The notes beneath the pieces were generated by a model. That model did not search any database. It was not told the DNA's origin and saw only the letters and a program-made list of their open reading frames with translations. From Rhodococcoides fascians A25f (lineage in GTDB: Bacteria > Actinomycetota > Actinomycetes > Mycobacteriales > Mycobacteriaceae), in NCBI RefSeq assembly GCF_000760935.2, contig NZ_CP049744.1, positions 1,966,001 to 2,030,000 on the forward strand: 64,000 nucleotides of DNA. The letters run 5' to 3'. Positions 56,131 through 64,000 of this stretch are shown in pieces. The translations under genes were made by a program, and so were the position numbers. The first letter of the stretch is position 1. The number at the start of each line of letters is the position of its first letter.

Positions 56131-57240
56131 ATGTCCGAGTTCGATGGCAGTGGGTCGGCCGAGCAGCGCGCCCGATTCGACGACGAAGTTCACAGCCGAT
56201 GTGCCGACTGCCGGTTGCCCGGACATTCCGAGCCGCTGTCCGACGCGGCCGCCATCGCTGTCGCGGCCGGGCAGGTGGACGAACCTACGCGTGTAGTACT
56301 TATCAATCGATGGCACGCGGGACGCGCTCTGCCGTCGATCGGGGGGTTCGGCACGTTGCGATATCTGGTCGATGAGCGCGATCGATGGCTCGCCAAGGAC
56401 ACGACGAGCAAGCCAGGGACGGCGCTGGTGTACCGAGTGCGGGTTGCCGAACTGACCAAGCGCATCAACCATCAGCGCACCACGGTGGTGATGTCTAATC
56501 GGCACTACGCCACCGGGGTGCGTGCGGCACGGAAGGAGCGTCGAGAAGGTCTGCATCTCGATCTCGATCAACGGGATTCGGTCTTCGACGCACTGATGAG
56601 GACGCCTGCACCACGCCGGTTCGGTCCGGTTGCGGAGCGCGGCCTGTCGTTGGTGGACGCGGCCACGGATCGCGTGAGCATGCTTGCGCGCCGAACTCCT
56701 GTGGGTGACCGGGTCGAGTGGGCTACCGGTGTGGTCGACCAGTTCGTCGATCGCAAGGACGATCGCTTCGTCGATCGGTACGACACCCTGTTGTTTCTTG
56801 CAGGCACGTCGTTCGATCGGGTTCGTCGTTCGCCCGCATGGCAGTCGACCTACTTCGAGATCCAGCGCAATCAACTCGACCTCTTCGTCGAGCTCACCGA
56901 GATCTCGGTCGACGCCTCCTCCCTGCGCACGGTAGCGACCGAGTTGAACCGGATCGGTGAGACGATGGTCGACGAGGAGACCGCCGCTCAGGTCGAATCA
57001 CGGCGTGGCGCACTGGAAGTGGTGTGGACGCAGTTGACCGGTCGGGTAGCCGCGTTGGTCCGCCTGGCAAATCTGGTCGAGTCGTCCGAAAGCGAGGCTC
57101 GAACGTCCGACGCGATGACCCGTGCCCATAGTCTGGACGATCGGATCGACGATCTGGTGGGCCGATCGGGTAGCCGGGAAATGTCTGCCGAGAACACACA
57201 TTTCGTCGGTGATCAGGTGCGGACGCAGTGGCGCGATTGA
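56131..57240 (+). CDS. Protein of unknown function with N-terminal Cys/His cluster
   Basis: A 369-residue, soluble, charged protein. Residues ~21-32 contain HSRCADCRLPGH, a possible zinc or metal site (Cys-x2-Cys with flanking His). The remainder is helical and Arg/Asp-rich (RRFGPVAERGLSLVDAATDRV; YFEIQRNQLDLFVELTEISV). I do not recognise a family. AGGAGAG precedes ATG 56131. A short direct repeat and a hairpin begin at its stop codon. Confidence 0.7.
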   Translation: MSEFDGSGSAEQRARFDDEVHSRCADCRLPGHSEPLSDAAAIAVAAGQVDEPTRVVLINRWHAGRALPSIGGFGTLRYLVDERDRWLAKDTTSKPGTALVYRVRVAELTKRINHQRTTVVMSNRHYATGVRAARKERREGLHLDLDQRDSVFDALMRTPAPRRFGPVAERGLSLVDAATDRVSMLARRTPVGDRVEWATGVVDQFVDRKDDRFVDRYDTLLFLAGTSFDRVRRSPAWQSTYFEIQRNQLDLFVELTEISVDASSLRTVATELNRIGETMVDEETAAQVESRRGALEVVWTQLTGRVAALVRLANLVESSESEARTSDAMTRAHSLDDRIDDLVGRSGSREMSAENTHFVGDQVRTQWRD

Positions 57241-57304: not shown

Positions 57305-58744
57305 CTAGGCGATGATCGCGAAGAGGATTCCCGCGACGGCGAAGCTGACCACGGACAGGATCGTCTCGAGGACCGTCCACGTCTGCAGTGTCTGCTTGAC
57401 GGTGAGATTGAAGAATTTCGAGATGATCCAGAAACCGCCGTCGTTGACGTGGCTGGCGATGATCGAGCCCGCCGCGATGGACATGGCGATCAGCGCAACG
57501 GCCGGAGCGGAGTAATCCTGGGCTGCCACCAGTGGTCCGACGATGCCGCCGGTGGTCACGATGGCCACGGTTGCCGACCCCTGCGCGACCCTGAGCGCAC
57601 AGCTGATGATGTACGCCAACACGATGATGGGAAGACCTGCGGCCGCCATGGTGTCGGCCAGGGCCGTGCCGATACCCGTGGCGGAGATGACCTTTCCGAA
57701 GAACGCGCCTGCGCCGACCACCAAGAGCAGCATGCCCACCGGACGGAGCGACTCTCCGGTCAGCTTGCTGAGTTCCTGGACCGTGGACCCGCGTCGAATG
57801 CCCAGCACGTAGAACGCGATCAGGACTGCGATGAGCAGCGCGACGGCCGGGGTGCCGAAGAACGTCAGTACTTCGAGTAGGTTGCCCGGATCGAGCAGGA
57901 TGCTGCCGAACGTGGCACCGAGGATCAAGACCAGAGGAACGGCGATAATCGCACCGATGGTTCCCACCGACGGCGGCGTCGTGATCACCGGACGCTTCGT
58001 TGCTACCGTGCCGGCGCCACCGCCATCTGCGGTCGTGTCGTCTCCGTCGTTGATGAAGTCCTCGGGAACGTCGACGATTATTCGCTTGCCGATCCAATTA
58101 CCCCACACCAGGCCCGCGGCGATGAAACCGGGAATGCCGCAGATGAACCCGAACAGGATGAGCCATCCCAAGTTCACTTCGAGCAAGCCGCCGAGGGCAA
58201 CCGGCCCGGGATGCGGCGGTAGGAATGCGTGCGTCATGGACAGACCTGCCAGCATCGGCAGCGCGTAGAGGACCAGCGACTTTCCGCCCTGGCGTGCCGC
58301 CACGTAGACCAGCGGAGCCAGCACGAAAATGCCGATGTCGAAGAACACCGGAATGCCGAAGATCAAGCCCAACAGGCCCATTGCTATGGGTGCACCGCGT
58401 TCTCCGAACACCCCCAGGAGCTTTGCGGTCAATGCCTGTGCCCCACCCGACTTTTCGAGGATCGCGCCGAGCACGGTACCCAGTCCGATGATGACCGCGA
58501 TGTGTCCGAGGATTCCACCGAAGCCGGTTTCGAGCAATGACTCGTTGCTCTTGATCGCGGTGCCGACTATCTCGTTGACGGGCAGACCAGCAGCGAGGGC
58601 CAGCCCGAGACCGACGATGAGGAGAGCGATGAACGGTTCGAGCTTGACCTTGATGATGACTACCAGTAGCACGGCAATTGCGATGCCGCACAGTACGAGT
58701 AGACCTGGTGTGGAGGTTCTGAGCCAGTCGACCACAGAATTCAT
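57305..58744 (-). CDS. gntP: GntP-family gluconate-type permease
   Basis: A 479-residue membrane protein with 12-14 hydrophobic segments and the GntP family patterns KLEPFIALLIVGLGLALAAG, GIPVFFDIGIFVLAPLVY, SMTHAFLPPHPGPVA, and HVNDGGFWIISKFFNLT near the C-terminus. The family takes up gluconate and related hydroxy- or keto-acids with protons. ATG 58744 overlaps the stop of the KDPG aldolase gene (ATGA), so the permease is the last gene of a coupled operon with the aldolase, deacetylase and deaminase. In that context the likely substrate is an amino- or N-acetyl-sugar acid rather than plain gluconate. Confidence 0.92.
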   Translation of the reverse strand: MNSVVDWLRTSTPGLLVLCGIAIAVLLVVIIKVKLEPFIALLIVGLGLALAAGLPVNEIVGTAIKSNESLLETGFGGILGHIAVIIGLGTVLGAILEKSGGAQALTAKLLGVFGERGAPIAMGLLGLIFGIPVFFDIGIFVLAPLVYVAARQGGKSLVLYALPMLAGLSMTHAFLPPHPGPVALGGLLEVNLGWLILFGFICGIPGFIAAGLVWGNWIGKRIIVDVPEDFINDGDDTTADGGGAGTVATKRPVITTPPSVGTIGAIIAVPLVLILGATFGSILLDPGNLLEVLTFFGTPAVALLIAVLIAFYVLGIRRGSTVQELSKLTGESLRPVGMLLLVVGAGAFFGKVISATGIGTALADTMAAAGLPIIVLAYIISCALRVAQGSATVAIVTTGGIVGPLVAAQDYSAPAVALIAMSIAAGSIIASHVNDGGFWIISKFFNLTVKQTLQTWTVLETILSVVSFAVAGILFAIIA

Positions 58745-59379
58745 GACGAGCCTTCCTTGATGTCTGCGCTGATAGCTGCCACGAACGCTTGGGCTCGAGC
58801 AGTGATGTCGTCCCACTGGGCATCGGCGACCGATGCCGGTGGAACCACATCGGTGCCTGCGGTCACGGCCACGGCACCGGCCGCGAGGAACTGGGCGGCA
58901 TTGCCTGCGTTCACGCCGCCGGACGGAACGAGTTGGACGTCCGGAAATGGACCGAGCAGATCCTTGAAATACGCCGGCCCGACAGTCCGTGCTGGAAAGA
59001 CTTTGACCATGTCCGCCCCGAGATCGAGGGCGGTCATCACCTCGGATGGAGTGAGAGCGCCCATCATCAGCGGGATCCCTGCGTCCGTGACTACCGCGGC
59101 GACCTCGGGTCGTAGCCCGGGCGTGACGACGAACCGCGCGCCGGCGTCGACCGCAGTCCGCGCTTGATCGGCGGTCAGTACGGTACCGGCCCCCACGACG
59201 GCGCCAGCATCGGACGCGGCTCGGATCAATTCGAGAACTCCCGGTGTGGTGAAGGTCAGCTCGAGTGCGCGAATTCCCCCGCGCGCGAGCGCATCTGCCA
59301 GCGCCGCGGGATCGGAGATGCGCGGGGCACGGACCACCGACAGTGCGCGGTCCTCGAGAATTGCCGACAATGCGTTCAT
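58741..59379 (-). CDS. eda: 2-keto-3-deoxy-6-phosphogluconate aldolase
   Basis: A 212-residue class I aldolase of the KDPG/KHG family. It has the catalytic Glu in ALELTFTTP (Glu40), GAVVGAGTVLT (59-69), the Schiff-base lysine in DMVKVFPA (Lys126) and a C-terminal GGVNAGNAAQFL phosphate loop. It splits KDPG to pyruvate and glyceraldehyde-3-phosphate. It is coupled by ATGA overlaps to the deacetylase gene upstream and the permease gene downstream. The kinase that supplies KDPG is encoded on the opposite strand at 62413. Confidence 0.94.
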   Translation of the reverse strand: MNALSAILEDRALSVVRAPRISDPAALADALARGGIRALELTFTTPGVLELIRAASDAGAVVGAGTVLTADQARTAVDAGARFVVTPGLRPEVAAVVTDAGIPLMMGALTPSEVMTALDLGADMVKVFPARTVGPAYFKDLLGPFPDVQLVPSGGVNAGNAAQFLAAGAVAVTAGTDVVPPASVADAQWDDITARAQAFVAAISADIKEGSS

Positions 59380-60989
59380 GACGTCTGCTTTCGGGTCGCG
59401 TCCATGCGCAGGGCGTGGCCTGCCAGTGAGTGGGTGGAGCTTCGATCGTCGATGGCGAAAGCGCCGTTCACCATGACGTGGCTGATTCCCTCGGCTTGTT
59501 GTTTCGGGTTCTCGAAGGTGGCGGTATCTCGCACGGTCGCCGGGTCGAACAGGACGAGATCGGCTGCATGGCCTTCGGCAATCGTGCCGCGTCCGCGCAG
59601 CCGTAGCCGAGCAGCCGGGCGTCCGGTCAAGTGATTGATGCAGTCCTCCAGCGAAAGAAGTTGCTCGTCGCGTACGTAGTGTCCGAGGTAGCGAGGGAAG
59701 GTGCCCCAGGCCCGAGGGTGCGGTTTCTCGCCCACCAGAATCGCGTCGCTGCCACCCATGTGGTGCGGATGCGCCATGATCTCGCGCACGTTCTCCTCGT
59801 GCCCGACGTGCTGCAGAATGGTGGTGGCCAGCGCATCGCGGCGAAGGAAGTCGAAGAACACGTTCACCGGGGAGCGTCCTTCGTCGGACGCGATGTCGGA
59901 CATCGTGCGGCCGACGTATCGATCGAGTTCGGGATTGGCCACACCACTGAGTTGGATGGTGTCCCACTCGACCGTGACTCCATGGCAACCGTCGGACCCG
60001 TTCACGTCGACATCCCGCTCGATGCGCCGTCGCATGTCCGGATCGTCGAGCCGTTCCAGGGCTCGGTCCGGGCCACCGGACATTGCCCAGCTCGGCAGTA
60101 GCGCAGACAGTGTGGTGGCTCCAGGCAGGTACGGGTATGTGTCGAGGGTGACGTCGCATCCGTCGGCGATTGCGGAGTCGACGCGATCGAGGAACTCACG
60201 TGCTCTTCCACGATTGACTCCGAAGTTCATCGTGGCGTGCGTCAGATGCAGCGCGCACCCCGTATCCCGGGAGAGATCGAGCATTTCCTGGTAAGCGTCG
60301 AGGGCTCCGGCACCGTACGACCGGGTATGTGGCGCATAGAACCCACCGAACTCGGCGACGACCTCGCACAGTGCGCGTAATTCGCTTGTGTCCGCATACA
60401 TTCCGGGCGTGTAGGTCAAACCGCTCGACATCCCGACAGCGCCCTCCTGCAGGCCCTGCGCCAACAATTCCTGCATGTGGGCGATCTCGGACGGCGTCGC
60501 CGGTCGCTGGTCCGCACCCACCGCGAGGTAGCGCAAGGTGCCTTGAGGGACGAGATACGCAGCGTTCGGGGTGATGCCCTGGTCCAGTCGCGCGAGGTAC
60601 TCCGAGACCGACCGCCACGAGAAGTCGAGGTCGACGGGATTGCCGTTCCATCCGGCGATCTGACGTCGCACCACGTCGAGTGTGGCGTCGTCGATCGGGG
60701 CGTAGGCGATGCCGTCCTGCCCGATGACCTCGGTTGTGACGCCCTGACTGATCTTCGGGAAATGATCGGGGTCGGTCAGCAGTCGAAGGTCGGAATGGGC
60801 GTGCATATCGATGAACCCGGGGGAGAGGACCTGACCGGGCGAGGCGTCGACGATTCTGTCGGCCCCGGGCACAGCTCCGGGCTCGACGATCGACGTGATG
60901 ACACCGTCGCGCACGAGGACGTCGCGCCGCAATCGTGGCGATCCGGTGCCGTCGATGACGTCGGCACCTCGAAAGAGAGTACTGGGCAT
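59376..60989 (-). CDS. D-aminoacylase/N-acyl-D-glucosaminate-deacetylase-like amidohydrolase
   Basis: A 537-residue metal-dependent amidohydrolase. It has HxH in FIDMHAHSDLRLL (about residues 60-72), GQDGIAYAP, the LHLTHATM motif with a metal His, and the late Asp region PHHMGGSDAILVGEKPHPRAWGTF. It belongs to the N-acyl-D-amino-acid deacylase family, which removes acetyl groups from N-acyl-D-amino acids. In this operon, upstream of a D-amino-acid-type deaminase and with KDG kinase and KDPG aldolase, the most consistent substrate is N-acetyl-D-glucosaminate. That substrate is inference; the enzyme class is clear. The start and stop overlap or closely adjoin both neighbours. Confidence 0.85.
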   Translation of the reverse strand: MPSTLFRGADVIDGTGSPRLRRDVLVRDGVITSIVEPGAVPGADRIVDASPGQVLSPGFIDMHAHSDLRLLTDPDHFPKISQGVTTEVIGQDGIAYAPIDDATLDVVRRQIAGWNGNPVDLDFSWRSVSEYLARLDQGITPNAAYLVPQGTLRYLAVGADQRPATPSEIAHMQELLAQGLQEGAVGMSSGLTYTPGMYADTSELRALCEVVAEFGGFYAPHTRSYGAGALDAYQEMLDLSRDTGCALHLTHATMNFGVNRGRAREFLDRVDSAIADGCDVTLDTYPYLPGATTLSALLPSWAMSGGPDRALERLDDPDMRRRIERDVDVNGSDGCHGVTVEWDTIQLSGVANPELDRYVGRTMSDIASDEGRSPVNVFFDFLRRDALATTILQHVGHEENVREIMAHPHHMGGSDAILVGEKPHPRAWGTFPRYLGHYVRDEQLLSLEDCINHLTGRPAARLRLRGRGTIAEGHAADLVLFDPATVRDTATFENPKQQAEGISHVMVNGAFAIDDRSSTHSLAGHALRMDATRKQTS

Positions 60990-61003
60990 AGGATTTCGGC
61001 TCT

Positions 61004-62287
61004 CTAGAAGAATGTGTGAACGAAATCGACCACTCGTGGATCGTCGCTGTCCGCGTCGTCGATCACGGGAACGAGACGCCATTTGTCGAATGCGGTGCAG
61101 GGATGTGACAGACCCAGTCGAACCACCGACCCCACCGGCAGTGCCGCCGCGTCTTCTGCCGGTAGTCGTAGGAACGCATGTTGGTCGTTCAGAGCGGTCA
61201 CCTCGGCTCCTGGGTCGAGCAGTTCGTTCCCTCTGATGTGTTGCGGTACGGGCATTCCCTCGTCGAAGGGGAAGTCCCTTTTACCGGCGTCGAGCAATGC
61301 GAGACCTGGCTCGGGGCGGGAGACGGCGCGCGCCCATCCGTGCATCGCCGACGTCAGTGGCGCGTCGGTGCGGGCGGGAGTGAGCGGAGAAATCTGCGAG
61401 TAGAAGCCGTCGTCGTGCACCACGTAGGCACCCGAGCGAAGCACCACGTCGGTGCGTACGCCATCTTCCGTGGTGAGCGAATGCAGTCGCTCGACAACGA
61501 GATCTTGATAGGCACTGCCGCCCGCGGTCACCACCGCGTGCTCGCCGTACAGCCCCTCGGCGTCGAGTGCGCGATGGAGATCTGCGACCTGGTCGAGATA
61601 CGTTCGGACTGCCTCGAGGCCGTTCTCGGAGCGGTCGTGGCTCAGTACTCCCTCGTAACCGCCGACGCCGGCCAAGGTCAGGCGTGACGACGCCGCGATC
61701 GCACGGGCAACGGACGCTGCTTCCTCGATCGTGCGTGCGCCGGTTCGGCCGTGTGGGCCACCGAGTTCGACGATCACCGGAATGGGGCGCTGCCCCTGTG
61801 TCGCCAGAATGCGGTCCATCTCGTGCACCGTCGCGACACTGTCTGCCCAGCAGTAGAACTCGAACGTGGGATGTGCATCCAGTTCGGCGGCAACCCACGT
61901 CAACGCGACGGGGTCGATCTCGGCGTTGGCGAGGACGATGCGTCCGACCCCGAATGCGCGTGCCACCTGAACTTGCCACCCGGTCGCGAGGGTGATCGCC
62001 CAGCTTCCGGCATCGAGCTGCTGTTTCCACAGTTGAGGGGCCATCGACGTCTTGCCGTGGGGCGCGAGCAGCACTCCCGCGCGTGCCGTCCAGTCGGCCA
62101 TGACCGAGACGTTCGACGCCATACGCGCACGATCGAGGGTGAGCACCGGGGTCGTGAATTCGGAAAGCCGGGGAGCCGTGGCGAGAAAACTTTCGACGGT
62201 AAGGCCCCACGACCGCGGGGGAAGCGATTTGTGCTCGGGCCCGAGGGTTCGTCGACTCAGTTCCTCGACGGCATCCGTGTCGATCAC
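61004..62287 (-). CDS. PLP-dependent D-serine-dehydratase-like deaminase
   Basis: A 427-residue alanine-racemase-fold enzyme of the DSD1/D-threonine-aldolase type. It has the PLP lysine in LLAPHGKTSMAPQL (Lys79) and the C-terminal zinc pair His395/Cys397 in LSHPCTAFDKW. YEGVLSHDRS and VVTAGGSAYQDLV are other family marks. It removes ammonia from D-beta-hydroxy amino acids, yielding 2-keto products. D-glucosaminate has exactly that arrangement and would give 2-keto-3-deoxygluconate, the substrate of the kinase encoded at 62413. Substrate identity is inference from the operon. It is the first gene of the four-gene operon. Confidence 0.87.
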   Translation of the reverse strand: MIDTDAVEELSRRTLGPEHKSLPPRSWGLTVESFLATAPRLSEFTTPVLTLDRARMASNVSVMADWTARAGVLLAPHGKTSMAPQLWKQQLDAGSWAITLATGWQVQVARAFGVGRIVLANAEIDPVALTWVAAELDAHPTFEFYCWADSVATVHEMDRILATQGQRPIPVIVELGGPHGRTGARTIEEAASVARAIAASSRLTLAGVGGYEGVLSHDRSENGLEAVRTYLDQVADLHRALDAEGLYGEHAVVTAGGSAYQDLVVERLHSLTTEDGVRTDVVLRSGAYVVHDDGFYSQISPLTPARTDAPLTSAMHGWARAVSRPEPGLALLDAGKRDFPFDEGMPVPQHIRGNELLDPGAEVTALNDQHAFLRLPAEDAAALPVGSVVRLGLSHPCTAFDKWRLVPVIDDADSDDPRVVDFVHTFF

Positions 62288-62319
62288 GTTCGGTCCTCCT
62301 GTTGAAAGATTTCGTTGCG

Positions 62320-62348
62320 TTGCGCATTGTGCAATGTTGGTTGCGCAA
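62320..62348. promoter_or_regulatory. IclR-type operator cluster in the divergent promoter
   Basis: The region contains CATTGTGCAATG (62325-62336, 5-bp arms), a TTGCGCA...TGCAA dyad from 62320, and a perfect TTGCGCAA palindrome at 62341-62348. It lies between the deaminase operon and the kinase-iclR operon, both of which would be controlled by the IclR protein encoded at 63432. The overlapping half-sites fit a tetrameric IclR binding two adjacent dyads. Confidence 0.7.
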
Positions 62349-62412
62349 TATGTTTATGCTTTGTAGTCTGCAACGACATGCAGCGTTCCCGCAAGACTTC
62401 GAGGAGATCGAC

Positions 62413-63435
62413 GTGAAAACACCCCGAGTGGTGTGTGTAGGTGAAGGCCTCGTCGTTCTCGTTGCCGAAGCGGGTCCGCTGGAGAGCTCGGAAACGTTTC
62501 ATCGCACGTCCGGCGGTGCCGAAGCGAACGTCGCCAGGGTGTTCGGGCAGTTGGGCGTCGACGCTGCGTGGGTCTCTCGGGTGGGCAACGACGGCTTCGG
62601 CCGGTACCTGGTCCGGCAATTGGCGGAAGCGGGCGTCGATACCTCGGGTGTGGCGATCGACGACGAGCGCCCCACCGGTATGTACATCAAAGAGCGCGGC
62701 TCGGGTTCCGGTGACCGATACGACCTCGCGTCCGGAGACAGCGCGATGACCTATTTTCGGGCCGGGTCGGCCGCGAGCGCGCTGTCGCCCAGCGACATCG
62801 GCGAGGAGGCTTCGGCGCTGGTGTCCCGAGCCGACCTGATTCATTTCACGGGAATCACAGTGGCCATCTCGGACAGTGCGGCCGAACTGACCAGAGCACT
62901 GATGGACCGATCCACCACCGTGAGCTTCGACTTGAACTATCGGCCGGCGCTGTGGAAGTCGCGATCGGGCACCGCCGCGGACGTACTCGGCGAGCATGTC
63001 CGCGGAAGCGATGTGGTCTCGATGGGATCCGACGAAGCTGCGCTGGTGTTCGGGACGTCGGATCCGGCCGAGTTGCGTCGGATGTTCCCGCAACCGCAGC
63101 ACTTGGTGATCAAGAACGACGCGCACACAGTGACGGCGTTCGAGGGCGCAGCTCGAGTCGATGTACCGGCTTTGAAACTCGATGTCGTCGAAAAGATCGG
63201 TGCGGGAGATGCTTTCGCGGGTGGCTACTTGACGGCATTGCTGCTCGGAAGGAGTGCTGTCGAGCGTGTTCGGTTCGGTCACCTGTGTGCGGCGGGTGCG
63301 CTCACCGGGCACGGCGATATCGCGTCTGTACTGCCTCTCGACGTATTGATCCGACTGGCCGAACTCGACGATGCCGAATGGGCGACACTGGACTACGCGG
63401 CCACTGCCGCCCGTTGTTCGGAGGTGTCGCAGTGA
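62413..63435 (+). CDS. kdgK: 2-keto-3-deoxygluconate kinase (PfkB family)
   Basis: A 340-residue ribokinase-fold kinase. Substrate loop GGAEANVARVFGQLG (34-48), the YIKERG segment near residue 91, and the catalytic anion hole VEKIGAGDAFAGGYL with Asp266 (GAGD 263-266). Phosphorylation of 2-keto-3-deoxygluconate is inferred from the adjacent KDPG aldolase and matches the KdgK size. GTG 62413 has GAGGAG upstream. Its stop overlaps the IclR gene start (GTGA), so the kinase and regulator are co-translated. Confidence 0.88.
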   Translation: MKTPRVVCVGEGLVVLVAEAGPLESSETFHRTSGGAEANVARVFGQLGVDAAWVSRVGNDGFGRYLVRQLAEAGVDTSGVAIDDERPTGMYIKERGSGSGDRYDLASGDSAMTYFRAGSAASALSPSDIGEEASALVSRADLIHFTGITVAISDSAAELTRALMDRSTTVSFDLNYRPALWKSRSGTAADVLGEHVRGSDVVSMGSDEAALVFGTSDPAELRRMFPQPQHLVIKNDAHTVTAFEGAARVDVPALKLDVVEKIGAGDAFAGGYLTALLLGRSAVERVRFGHLCAAGALTGHGDIASVLPLDVLIRLAELDDAEWATLDYAATAARCSEVSQ

Positions 63436-64000
63436 GTCAAAGCCTCTCGCGGGCGCTGACGATCCTCGGCTTGCTCGGTGACGGATCGAAATCGCTGGAC
63501 GAGCTGGCGACGGTTCTCGACGTGCACAAGACCACCGTGCTGCGGCTGCTTCGCACCATGGAGAGCGACCGATTCGTTCAGCACGATGCCGATCACCGGT
63601 ATCAACTCGGATCGAGACTCTTCGAGTTGGCCAACCACGCACTGGAACAGCGCGACATACGGAGCGTCGCCCGGCCACACCTGGCGGAACTCAACACGAT
63701 CACCGGTCAGACCATCCACTTGGCGACGTACGAAGCGGGTGAGGTGATCTACATCGACAAATTCGACGCCAAACAGAGCGTGCGGATGTATTCGCGGGTC
63801 GGCAAGCCTGCGCCGTTGCACTGCACAGCCGTCGGGAAGATCTTGATCGCTGCACGCCCACGGGCGGAGCGTGAGCAGATTGCGCAGCGCATCACCTACA
63901 CGCCGTTCACCGAACGAACCATCGCAACGGCGGAGCAATATCTGCGTGAGCTGGACCTCGTCCTGTCGCAAGGATTTGCCGAGGACCGCGAGGAGCACGA
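63432..64000 (+). CDS. IclR-family regulator, 3' part beyond the window
   Basis: The first ~189 residues of an IclR protein (usual length ~250). The winged helix is SRALTILGLLGDGSKSLDELATVLDVHKTTVLRLLRTMESDRFVQHD (about 5-50). The effector domain follows (LGSRLFELANHALEQRDIRSVARPHLAEL; GEVIYIDKFDAKQSVRMYS; LHCTAVGKILIA). It overlaps the kinase stop and probably regulates the kinase and the divergent deaminase operon through the TTGCGCAA cluster. The end of the effector domain is outside the window, so the inducer cannot be guessed. Confidence 0.92.
   Translation, partial: MSQSLSRALTILGLLGDGSKSLDELATVLDVHKTTVLRLLRTMESDRFVQHDADHRYQLGSRLFELANHALEQRDIRSVARPHLAELNTITGQTIHLATYEAGEVIYIDKFDAKQSVRMYSRVGKPAPLHCTAVGKILIAARPRAEREQIAQRITYTPFTERTIATAEQYLRELDLVLSQGFAEDREEH

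Follow-up and report, generated by a model that had tools for sequence, protein, structure and literature searches.

A conserved divergent gene module of Rhodococcoides fascians A25f and other Actinomycetota that probably serves the catabolism of an N-acetylated amino sugar acid

Organisation of the locus

The stretch analysed here, called the window throughout, comprises 64,000 nucleotides of Rhodococcoides fascians A25f (contig NZ_CP049744.1, positions 1,966,001 to 2,030,000), and at its right end two divergent operons, with four genes on the minus strand and two on the plus strand, encode a putative route for the breakdown of an amino sugar acid. The minus-strand genes are transcribed in the order pyridoxal 5'-phosphate (PLP) deaminase, deacylase, 2-keto-3-deoxy-6-phosphogluconate (KDPG) aldolase and GntP permease. 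On the plus strand a kinase is followed by an IclR-family regulator, whose reading frame is cut by the window end. The features, with gene starts read from the sequence, are:

57305..58744, minus strand: GntP-family permease of the gluconate:H+ symporter type (PF02447, 404 bits; TIGR00791, 374 bits against a cut-off of 292.75)
58741..59379, minus strand: KDPG/2-keto-4-hydroxyglutarate (KHG) aldolase, eda type (PF01081, 166 bits; TIGR01182, 193 bits against a cut-off of 156)
59376..60989, minus strand: D-aminoacylase-like N-deacylase, putative N-acetylhexosaminate deacetylase of an Asp-type branch (PF07969, Amidohydro_3, 139 bits)
61004..62287, minus strand: fold-type III PLP deaminase with an HxC zinc motif, putative glucosaminate deaminase, GTG start (PF14031, D-ser_dehydrat, 74 bits; 3gwq, 231 bits)
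62320..62345, no strand: operator TTGC-N7-GCAA-N6-TTGC in the divergent promoter region (conserved intergenic motif)
62413..63435, plus strand: PfkB-family sugar-acid kinase, 2-keto-3-deoxygluconate (KDG) kinase-like, GTG start with GAGGAG in front (PF00294, 157 bits; 1v19, 116 bits)
63432..64000, plus strand: IclR-family regulator, N-terminal part, GTG start, running past the window end (PF01614, IclR_C, 117 bits; PF09339, 38 bits)

An earlier, sequence-only reading had placed a GntP permease, a deacetylase, a PLP deaminase, a KDG kinase and a KDPG aldolase here, with four genes packed by ATGA overlaps or short gaps and a divergent pair formed by the kinase and an IclR regulator. All are present at that place with sound domain matches; ATGA overlaps join the permease to the aldolase and the aldolase to the deacylase, 14 bases separate the deacylase from the deaminase, and the kinase and IclR genes overlap at GTGA. 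Two elements had escaped that reading, the conserved operator and a gene for RidA, which in the host, if placed as in relatives, would fall beyond the window end. The closest proteins carry Rhodococcus names, with up to 94% identity for the deacylase and up to 98% for the deaminase.

The permease passes the TIGR00791 gluconate:H+ symporter cut-off, the aldolase passes the KDPG/KHG model TIGR01182, and the kinase is over the PfkB Pfam cut-off, with the KDG kinase 1v19 as its nearest solved sugar-acid kinase. The closest NCBIfam model for the IclR protein is KdgR (148 bits, below the cut-off of 275). Elsewhere in the host genome (5.89 Mb, 4 contigs) there is a second aldolase copy, 39% identical, and the best other paralogue of the kinase reaches 52 bits.

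Conservation of the gene set across Actinomycetota

A scan with one genome per species returned at least 80 related loci, and the 80 listed ones, 79 of them with actinobacterial names, were analysed, with gene presence scored by tblastn (E 1e-5). The deaminase stands at the deacylase in 80/80 loci (one gene intervenes in L059 and L065), RidA is found in 78, mostly 3' of the IclR gene, IclR in 76, the kinase in 70, GntP in 61 (with an identity below 45% in three) and the aldolase in 46. A Tsukamurella replicon has an identical gene order with an annotated RidA after IclR, and an Arthrobacter replicon carries all six genes. As controls we used 20 loci (two of them short) that surround other D-aminoacylases of the class and were drawn from the weaker deacylase matches; here the deaminase and IclR were each found in 5, RidA in 2, the kinase in 1, and the aldolase and GntP in none. 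The six-gene arrangement is not due to chance, since it recurs across Actinomycetota and was not found around the 20 control D-aminoacylases.

Where the kinase is missing from the locus it often lies elsewhere: among nine such genomes searched (the tenth, L091, was left out) six have a kinase of at least 176 bits at another place, two a weaker one and one none. Mycobacterium aquaticum (L126, L024) has two clusters: one is cut down to deaminase and deacylase and lies near a binding protein of the amino-acid type, and the other, which holds the kinase, also comprises IclR, the operator, a deaminase and a deacylase.

These counts bear on the idea that the operons serve N-acyl-D-amino acids, the deaminase acting on D-serine or D-threonine and the kinase and aldolase working on another keto acid. 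In its favour, the closest solved relatives by sequence are a D-aminoacylase and a D-serine deaminase, and 5 of the 20 control loci have a deaminase without kinase or aldolase. OngC, the deaminase of the proteobacterial ong pathway, also takes D-serine and D-threonine according to the available text of PMC9537276. The presence of the kinase in 70/80 loci, and often elsewhere when it is missing from the locus, speaks against this idea, as do the operator targets and the deacylase pocket described below, and we regard it as quite improbable.

A conserved operator links unlinked genes to the cluster

The pattern TTGC-N7-GCAA-N6-TTGC was counted in the kinase/deaminase gap of the window and of 69 loci with a divergent gap of 20-600 bases, and it occurs in 69 of these 70 gaps, L027 being the one miss; 200 dinucleotide shuffles gave 0.005 on average. 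A stricter form has a single copy in the host genome, at 62320-62345. We searched with this strict form 41 genomes picked from the 80 loci (L036 was left out): in a first set 22/24 genomes matched, with one match for a reversed-pattern control, and in a second set 17/17 matched, with none for the control. Of the 48 strict sites, nine are found away from the clusters: five precede lactonases (in Nocardia altamirensis, N. panacis and three Lentzea, two of which are one species, out of five Lentzea genomes searched), two precede a sugar-binding protein (N. altamirensis and N. panacis), one a KDPG aldolase (S. anandii), and one, in Plantibacter, is unclear. This last is a second strict site of Plantibacter flavus (L123), beside a short frame resembling deacylase residues 284-391 and a DUF5605 gene.

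With a looser pattern, 14 of the 34 aldolase-less genomes, chosen from the 80 loci, gave 41 sites, against 6 for the reversed control. Eight Streptomyces-type genomes whose cluster is without an aldolase were among those searched, and in all eight an unlinked KDPG aldolase has the operator on its own strand, 32-72 bases ahead of its estimated start. This link of the KDPG aldolase with the deacylase and deaminase does not depend on gene neighbourhood. Taken together, the operator connects unlinked aldolases, lactonases and sugar transporters with the cluster, and these would be useless for a simple D-amino acid.

Lactonases, hexosaminidases and chitin oxidases

In both Nocardia species the operator precedes an operon that encodes a GH20 beta-N-acetylhexosaminidase, a sugar-binding lipoprotein (identified by eye) and ABC permeases, of which N. 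altamirensis gave one match and N. panacis two. In Amycolatopsis (L070, L073, L083) a lactonase, a sugar-binding protein and a GH20 follow GntP on one strand, and one Saccharopolyspora locus has the same three genes after GntP. Within reach of the 80 loci we counted a lactonase at 8, a GH20 at 6, a binding protein at 5 and any of them at 10; among the control loci a lactonase was seen once, and GH20 and the binding protein at none. C1 oxidation yields an aldonolactone, which a lactonase would fit. Inspected by eye, the N. altamirensis GH20 shows no signal peptide at its start and may therefore cleave oxidised oligomers intracellularly. Such a gene set points most simply to an N-acetylhexosaminic acid as the common substrate, and N-acetyl-D-glucosaminate (GlcNAc1A) appears the likeliest one. 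A simple N-acyl-D-amino acid operon was set aside on account of the links to kinase, aldolase, lactonase and GH20. Beyond the GH20 and transporter of its cluster, Arthrobacter psychrochitiniphilus seems to have a further hexosaminidase-like gene, recognised by eye (L234:16975-18722).

Actinobacteria are major degraders of chitin in soil, and many carry AA10 oxidases. Among 296 sampled genomes of the class, a cluster-type deacylase (at least 550 bits, the next matches being at 445) occurs in 51, AA10 in 85 and both in 39. AA10 is thus present in 39/51 cluster genomes and 46/245 others (odds ratio 14, Fisher p 4e-15, the p value being overstated because the genomes are related).

The deacylase and deaminase form branches of their own

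The sequence-only reading had likened the locus to the oxidative chitin route of marine Gram-negatives, and phylogeny sets its two key enzymes apart from those of that route, as does active-site comparison for the deacylase. The window deacylase is 33-35% identical to the OngB deacetylases of L005 and L006. In a tree of 32 rows (L071 left out) the 21 actinobacterial rows, the window's branch included, form their own clade (100/100); the OngB rows form another (100/100) beside the D-aminoacylase AfDam, and AfDam plus OngB are joined at 100/99, apart from the actinobacterial clade. Its nearest outside rows are from Natrinema and Cetobacterium, whose long branches meet, a warning sign in this tree. 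For the deaminase (33 rows, L071 again left out) the actinobacterial proteins form a clade of their own (95/92), 3gwq and OngC group together (100/99), and all of them are split at 100/100 from two outgroup rows, BhcC and an Azospirillum homologue. The window deaminase has the family's PLP lysine (K79) and, at H395 and C397, an HxC motif, which we take to be the zinc motif of D-serine dehydratase-like deaminases, so that it combines both marks of the zinc-dependent type, as do 3gwq and OngC. Among the 80 relatives the lysine is kept in 80, the histidine in 77 (one Asp, two gaps) and the cysteine in 78 (two gaps).

Residue roles in the deacylase can be read against PpOngB (9kb1/9kb3), as assigned in the available text of PMC12017989. 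Eight PpOngB residues are kept in 80/80 relatives (H68, H70, Y194, H222, H252, Y285, D368, R379), and five are replaced in 80/80: Asp stands for C97, Tyr for E226, Asn for A256, Gly for S290 and Thr for S292. At K254, 78/80 have Thr, as does the window, and 2/80 have Val; at A193, Thr is found in 76 relatives and Ser in the other 4. The cysteine metal ligand of subtype V amidohydrolases is thereby an Asp in the window and all relatives, with both His ligands and the catalytic Asp retained, and the carboxylate-binding trio Lys254/Tyr285/Arg379 has kept Tyr and Arg in 80/80 and lost Lys. At the position of Gln298 the window protein has a large insertion and the stretch does not align. The deacylases of Natrinema and Cetobacterium share the metal-ligand Asp and do not share the loss of the lysine. 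With the D-aminoacylases AfDam and BbDam (1m7j, 3gip) the window enzyme has in common the fold, most catalytic residues and the Thr at the Ser292 position; it differs from them in the cysteine ligand and the carboxylate lysine and, in 80/80 relatives, in the hydrophobic pocket of AfDam, where F191 is Thr or Ser and M254 is Asn. An AlphaFold2 model of the window deacylase (predicted local distance difference test score, pLDDT, 87.8) matches AfDam, BbDam and OngB equally. By these alignments the pocket is predicted to be polar like that of OngB, through other residues and with a different grip on the carboxylate, and such a polar pocket argues against N-acyl-D-amino acids as substrates.

The same replacements, of the carboxylate lysine by Thr or Val and of the glutamate facing the C4 hydroxyl by Tyr, could mean a substrate of another shape. 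The chemistry would then be unchanged and the acid a different one, such as N-acetyl-galactosaminate or N-acetyl-mannosaminate, one acylated differently, or the 2-aminogluconate of rhizobial lipid A, with the kinase and aldolase working on KDG, 2-keto-3-deoxygalactonate (KDGal) or relatives. GH20 enzymes, GntP permeases and KDG/KDGal kinases are lax on the C4 epimer, and an ong-type cluster of Klebsiella is annotated with a KDGal kinase and a 2-keto-3-deoxy-6-phosphogalactonate (KDPGal) aldolase. The window aldolase, for its part, scores best on the KDPG/KHG model and lower on the KDPGal model NF006600 (109 bits, under the cut-off of 207), and the statistical tie to AA10 oxidases also speaks for the glucosamine-derived acid. 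We find a different acid unlikely.

A putative pathway for N-acetyl-D-glucosaminate

We propose that the locus allows the inducible breakdown of an N-acetyl-2-amino-2-deoxy-aldonic acid, and most likely of GlcNAc1A, a reading that we hold to be probable. GlcNAc1A is the C1-oxidised end unit of chitin oligomers. GntP would import the sugar acid, the deacylase would strip its acetyl group, and the PLP deaminase would eliminate ammonia to give KDG, with RidA clearing the enamine or imine. The kinase would convert KDG to KDPG, which the aldolase would cleave to pyruvate and glyceraldehyde-3-phosphate, and the conserved operator between the operons would be where the IclR regulator acts. Certain other actinobacteria appear to add, in the operon or under the same operator, a lactonase to open the aldonolactone, a GH20 to split oxidised oligomers in the cell, and a sugar ABC transporter. 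This order of import, N-deacylation, beta-elimination, phosphorylation and aldol cleavage on a 2-amino-2-deoxy sugar acid had been suggested before, and the conserved gene content, the shared operator and the linked lactonase, ABC transporter and GH20 support it.

Several observations weigh against this proposal. The kinase falls below the NCBIfam cut-offs for KDG kinases (KDG_KDGal_kin, the best, at 169 against 400 bits; KdgK at 88 against 400), and the kinase and the aldolase are missing from 10/80 and 34/80 loci; none of the 6 non-Streptomyces aldolase-less genomes searched has the operator at an unlinked aldolase. A lactonase lies near only 8/80 loci and a GH20 near only 6/80. The window deacylase scores higher with AfDam (267 bits) than with OngB (215 bits) and lacks Cys97, Lys254 and Ser292 of OngB, and the window deaminase is outside the OngC clade. 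Sco4986 of Streptomyces coelicolor, which has phosphoenolpyruvate carboxykinase nearby and seems to be the deacylase orthologue (a family at seven of the loci resembles that carboxykinase by eye), was reported to be active on N-acetyl-D-Phe and N-acetyl-D-Trp, which also counts in favour of the N-acyl-D-amino acid idea. The AA10 association partly reflects shared ancestry: when only the AA10-bearing genomes of family f20 are taken out, it falls to 13/25 against 45/244 (odds ratio 4.8, p 4e-4, overstated for the same reason as above).

The host itself also seems to stand apart from chitin attack. A search for lytic polysaccharide monooxygenase genes had been suggested along with the earlier reading, and in the host genome AA10, GH18 and GH20 are without a match (GH19 and sugar oxidases were not searched); the three sample genomes of its genus all have the cluster and none has AA10. 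Oxidative chitin breakdown by the host itself was set aside on this result for AA10, GH18 and GH20. Since its own genome has no match to AA10, GH18 or GH20, the host would be a user and not a maker of the oxidised acid, and the link to chitin shifts from its own attack to a scavenged product. This Rhodococcus-like host would have the monomer part only and live on acid produced by others.

Relation to the ong pathway

The ong cluster of Pseudoalteromonas prydzensis, as described in the available text of PMC9537276, has a D-aminoacylase-fold deacetylase, a fold-type III PLP deaminase, RidA and a KDG kinase; a KDPG aldolase is part of the ong clusters of Vibrio, Klebsiella and Serratia. The actinobacterial set shares these functions, with IclR in place of RpiR, and GntP or a sugar ABC transporter in place of the SSS transporter and TonB receptor. 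A lactonase is added in some actinobacteria, and in some a GH20 is linked, as OngA is in the ong cluster; OngA of Pseudoalteromonas splits GlcNAc-GlcNAc1A (PMC9537276, same text). Compared with a Vibrio ong cluster, which is not the reference strain ACAM 620, the window proteins are 34% (deacylase), 34% (deaminase), 35% (aldolase) and 24% (kinase) identical. Orthology with the ong cluster was rejected from the trees of both key enzymes and the active-site residues of the deacylase. Of the likeness to the Gram-negative route, then, the conversions stand and the common descent of deacylase and deaminase does not: as judged from sequence comparison, the module would function like the proteobacterial pathway and is no member of it by descent of its two key enzymes.

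The ong survey asked for at least four co-occurring homologues of more than 30% identity to strain ACAM 620, and the available text reports the pathway from Gammaproteobacteria and one Achromobacter (PMC9537276). The low identity of the kinase may explain why such a survey missed the actinobacterial form. According to the accessible parts of two further accounts, the route was looked for in Aeromonas and left unconfirmed (PMC11653859), and a glucosaminate route with other enzymes was proposed for haloarchaea (PMC12343721). In the literature searched we did not find an actinobacterial version, and the words Streptomyces and Actinobacteria are absent from the main texts of the ong-pathway accounts compared.

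We lean, if only slightly, to the broader view that Actinobacteria have their own, separately assembled route for the oxidised end product of chitin. It would be common among soil genera and comprise a second, Asp-type family of GlcNAc1A deacetylases, a lactonase dedicated to it and an IclR operator. The fate of oxidised chitin ends is a real question for actinobacteria with AA10, which are 85 of the 296 genomes sampled, and the cluster and operator provide candidate genes for it. If the view is right, streptomycetes bearing AA10 would have a downstream route, rhodococci without AA10 would be scavengers of the oxidised amino sugar, and one pathway would have been assembled on two occasions, each time from a different sister branch of the two enzyme families.

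Further observations

Between a ferredoxin reductase-like gene and GntP lies a 369-residue reading frame (56131-57240) with no Pfam or NCBIfam match. The deacylase of a Klebsiella ong-type cluster (L094:4328-5767) is at zero tree distance from 9g5m (PDB 9g5m/9gv8), deposited as an N-acyl-D-amino-acid deacylase; 9g5m may in reality be a sugar-acid deacetylase, or OngB-type enzymes may be broader than reported. Finally, a record named Sporosarcina beigongshangi (Bacillota; L072) holds an Arthrobacter-like copy of the cluster with its operator, which may reflect transfer, misnaming or contamination.

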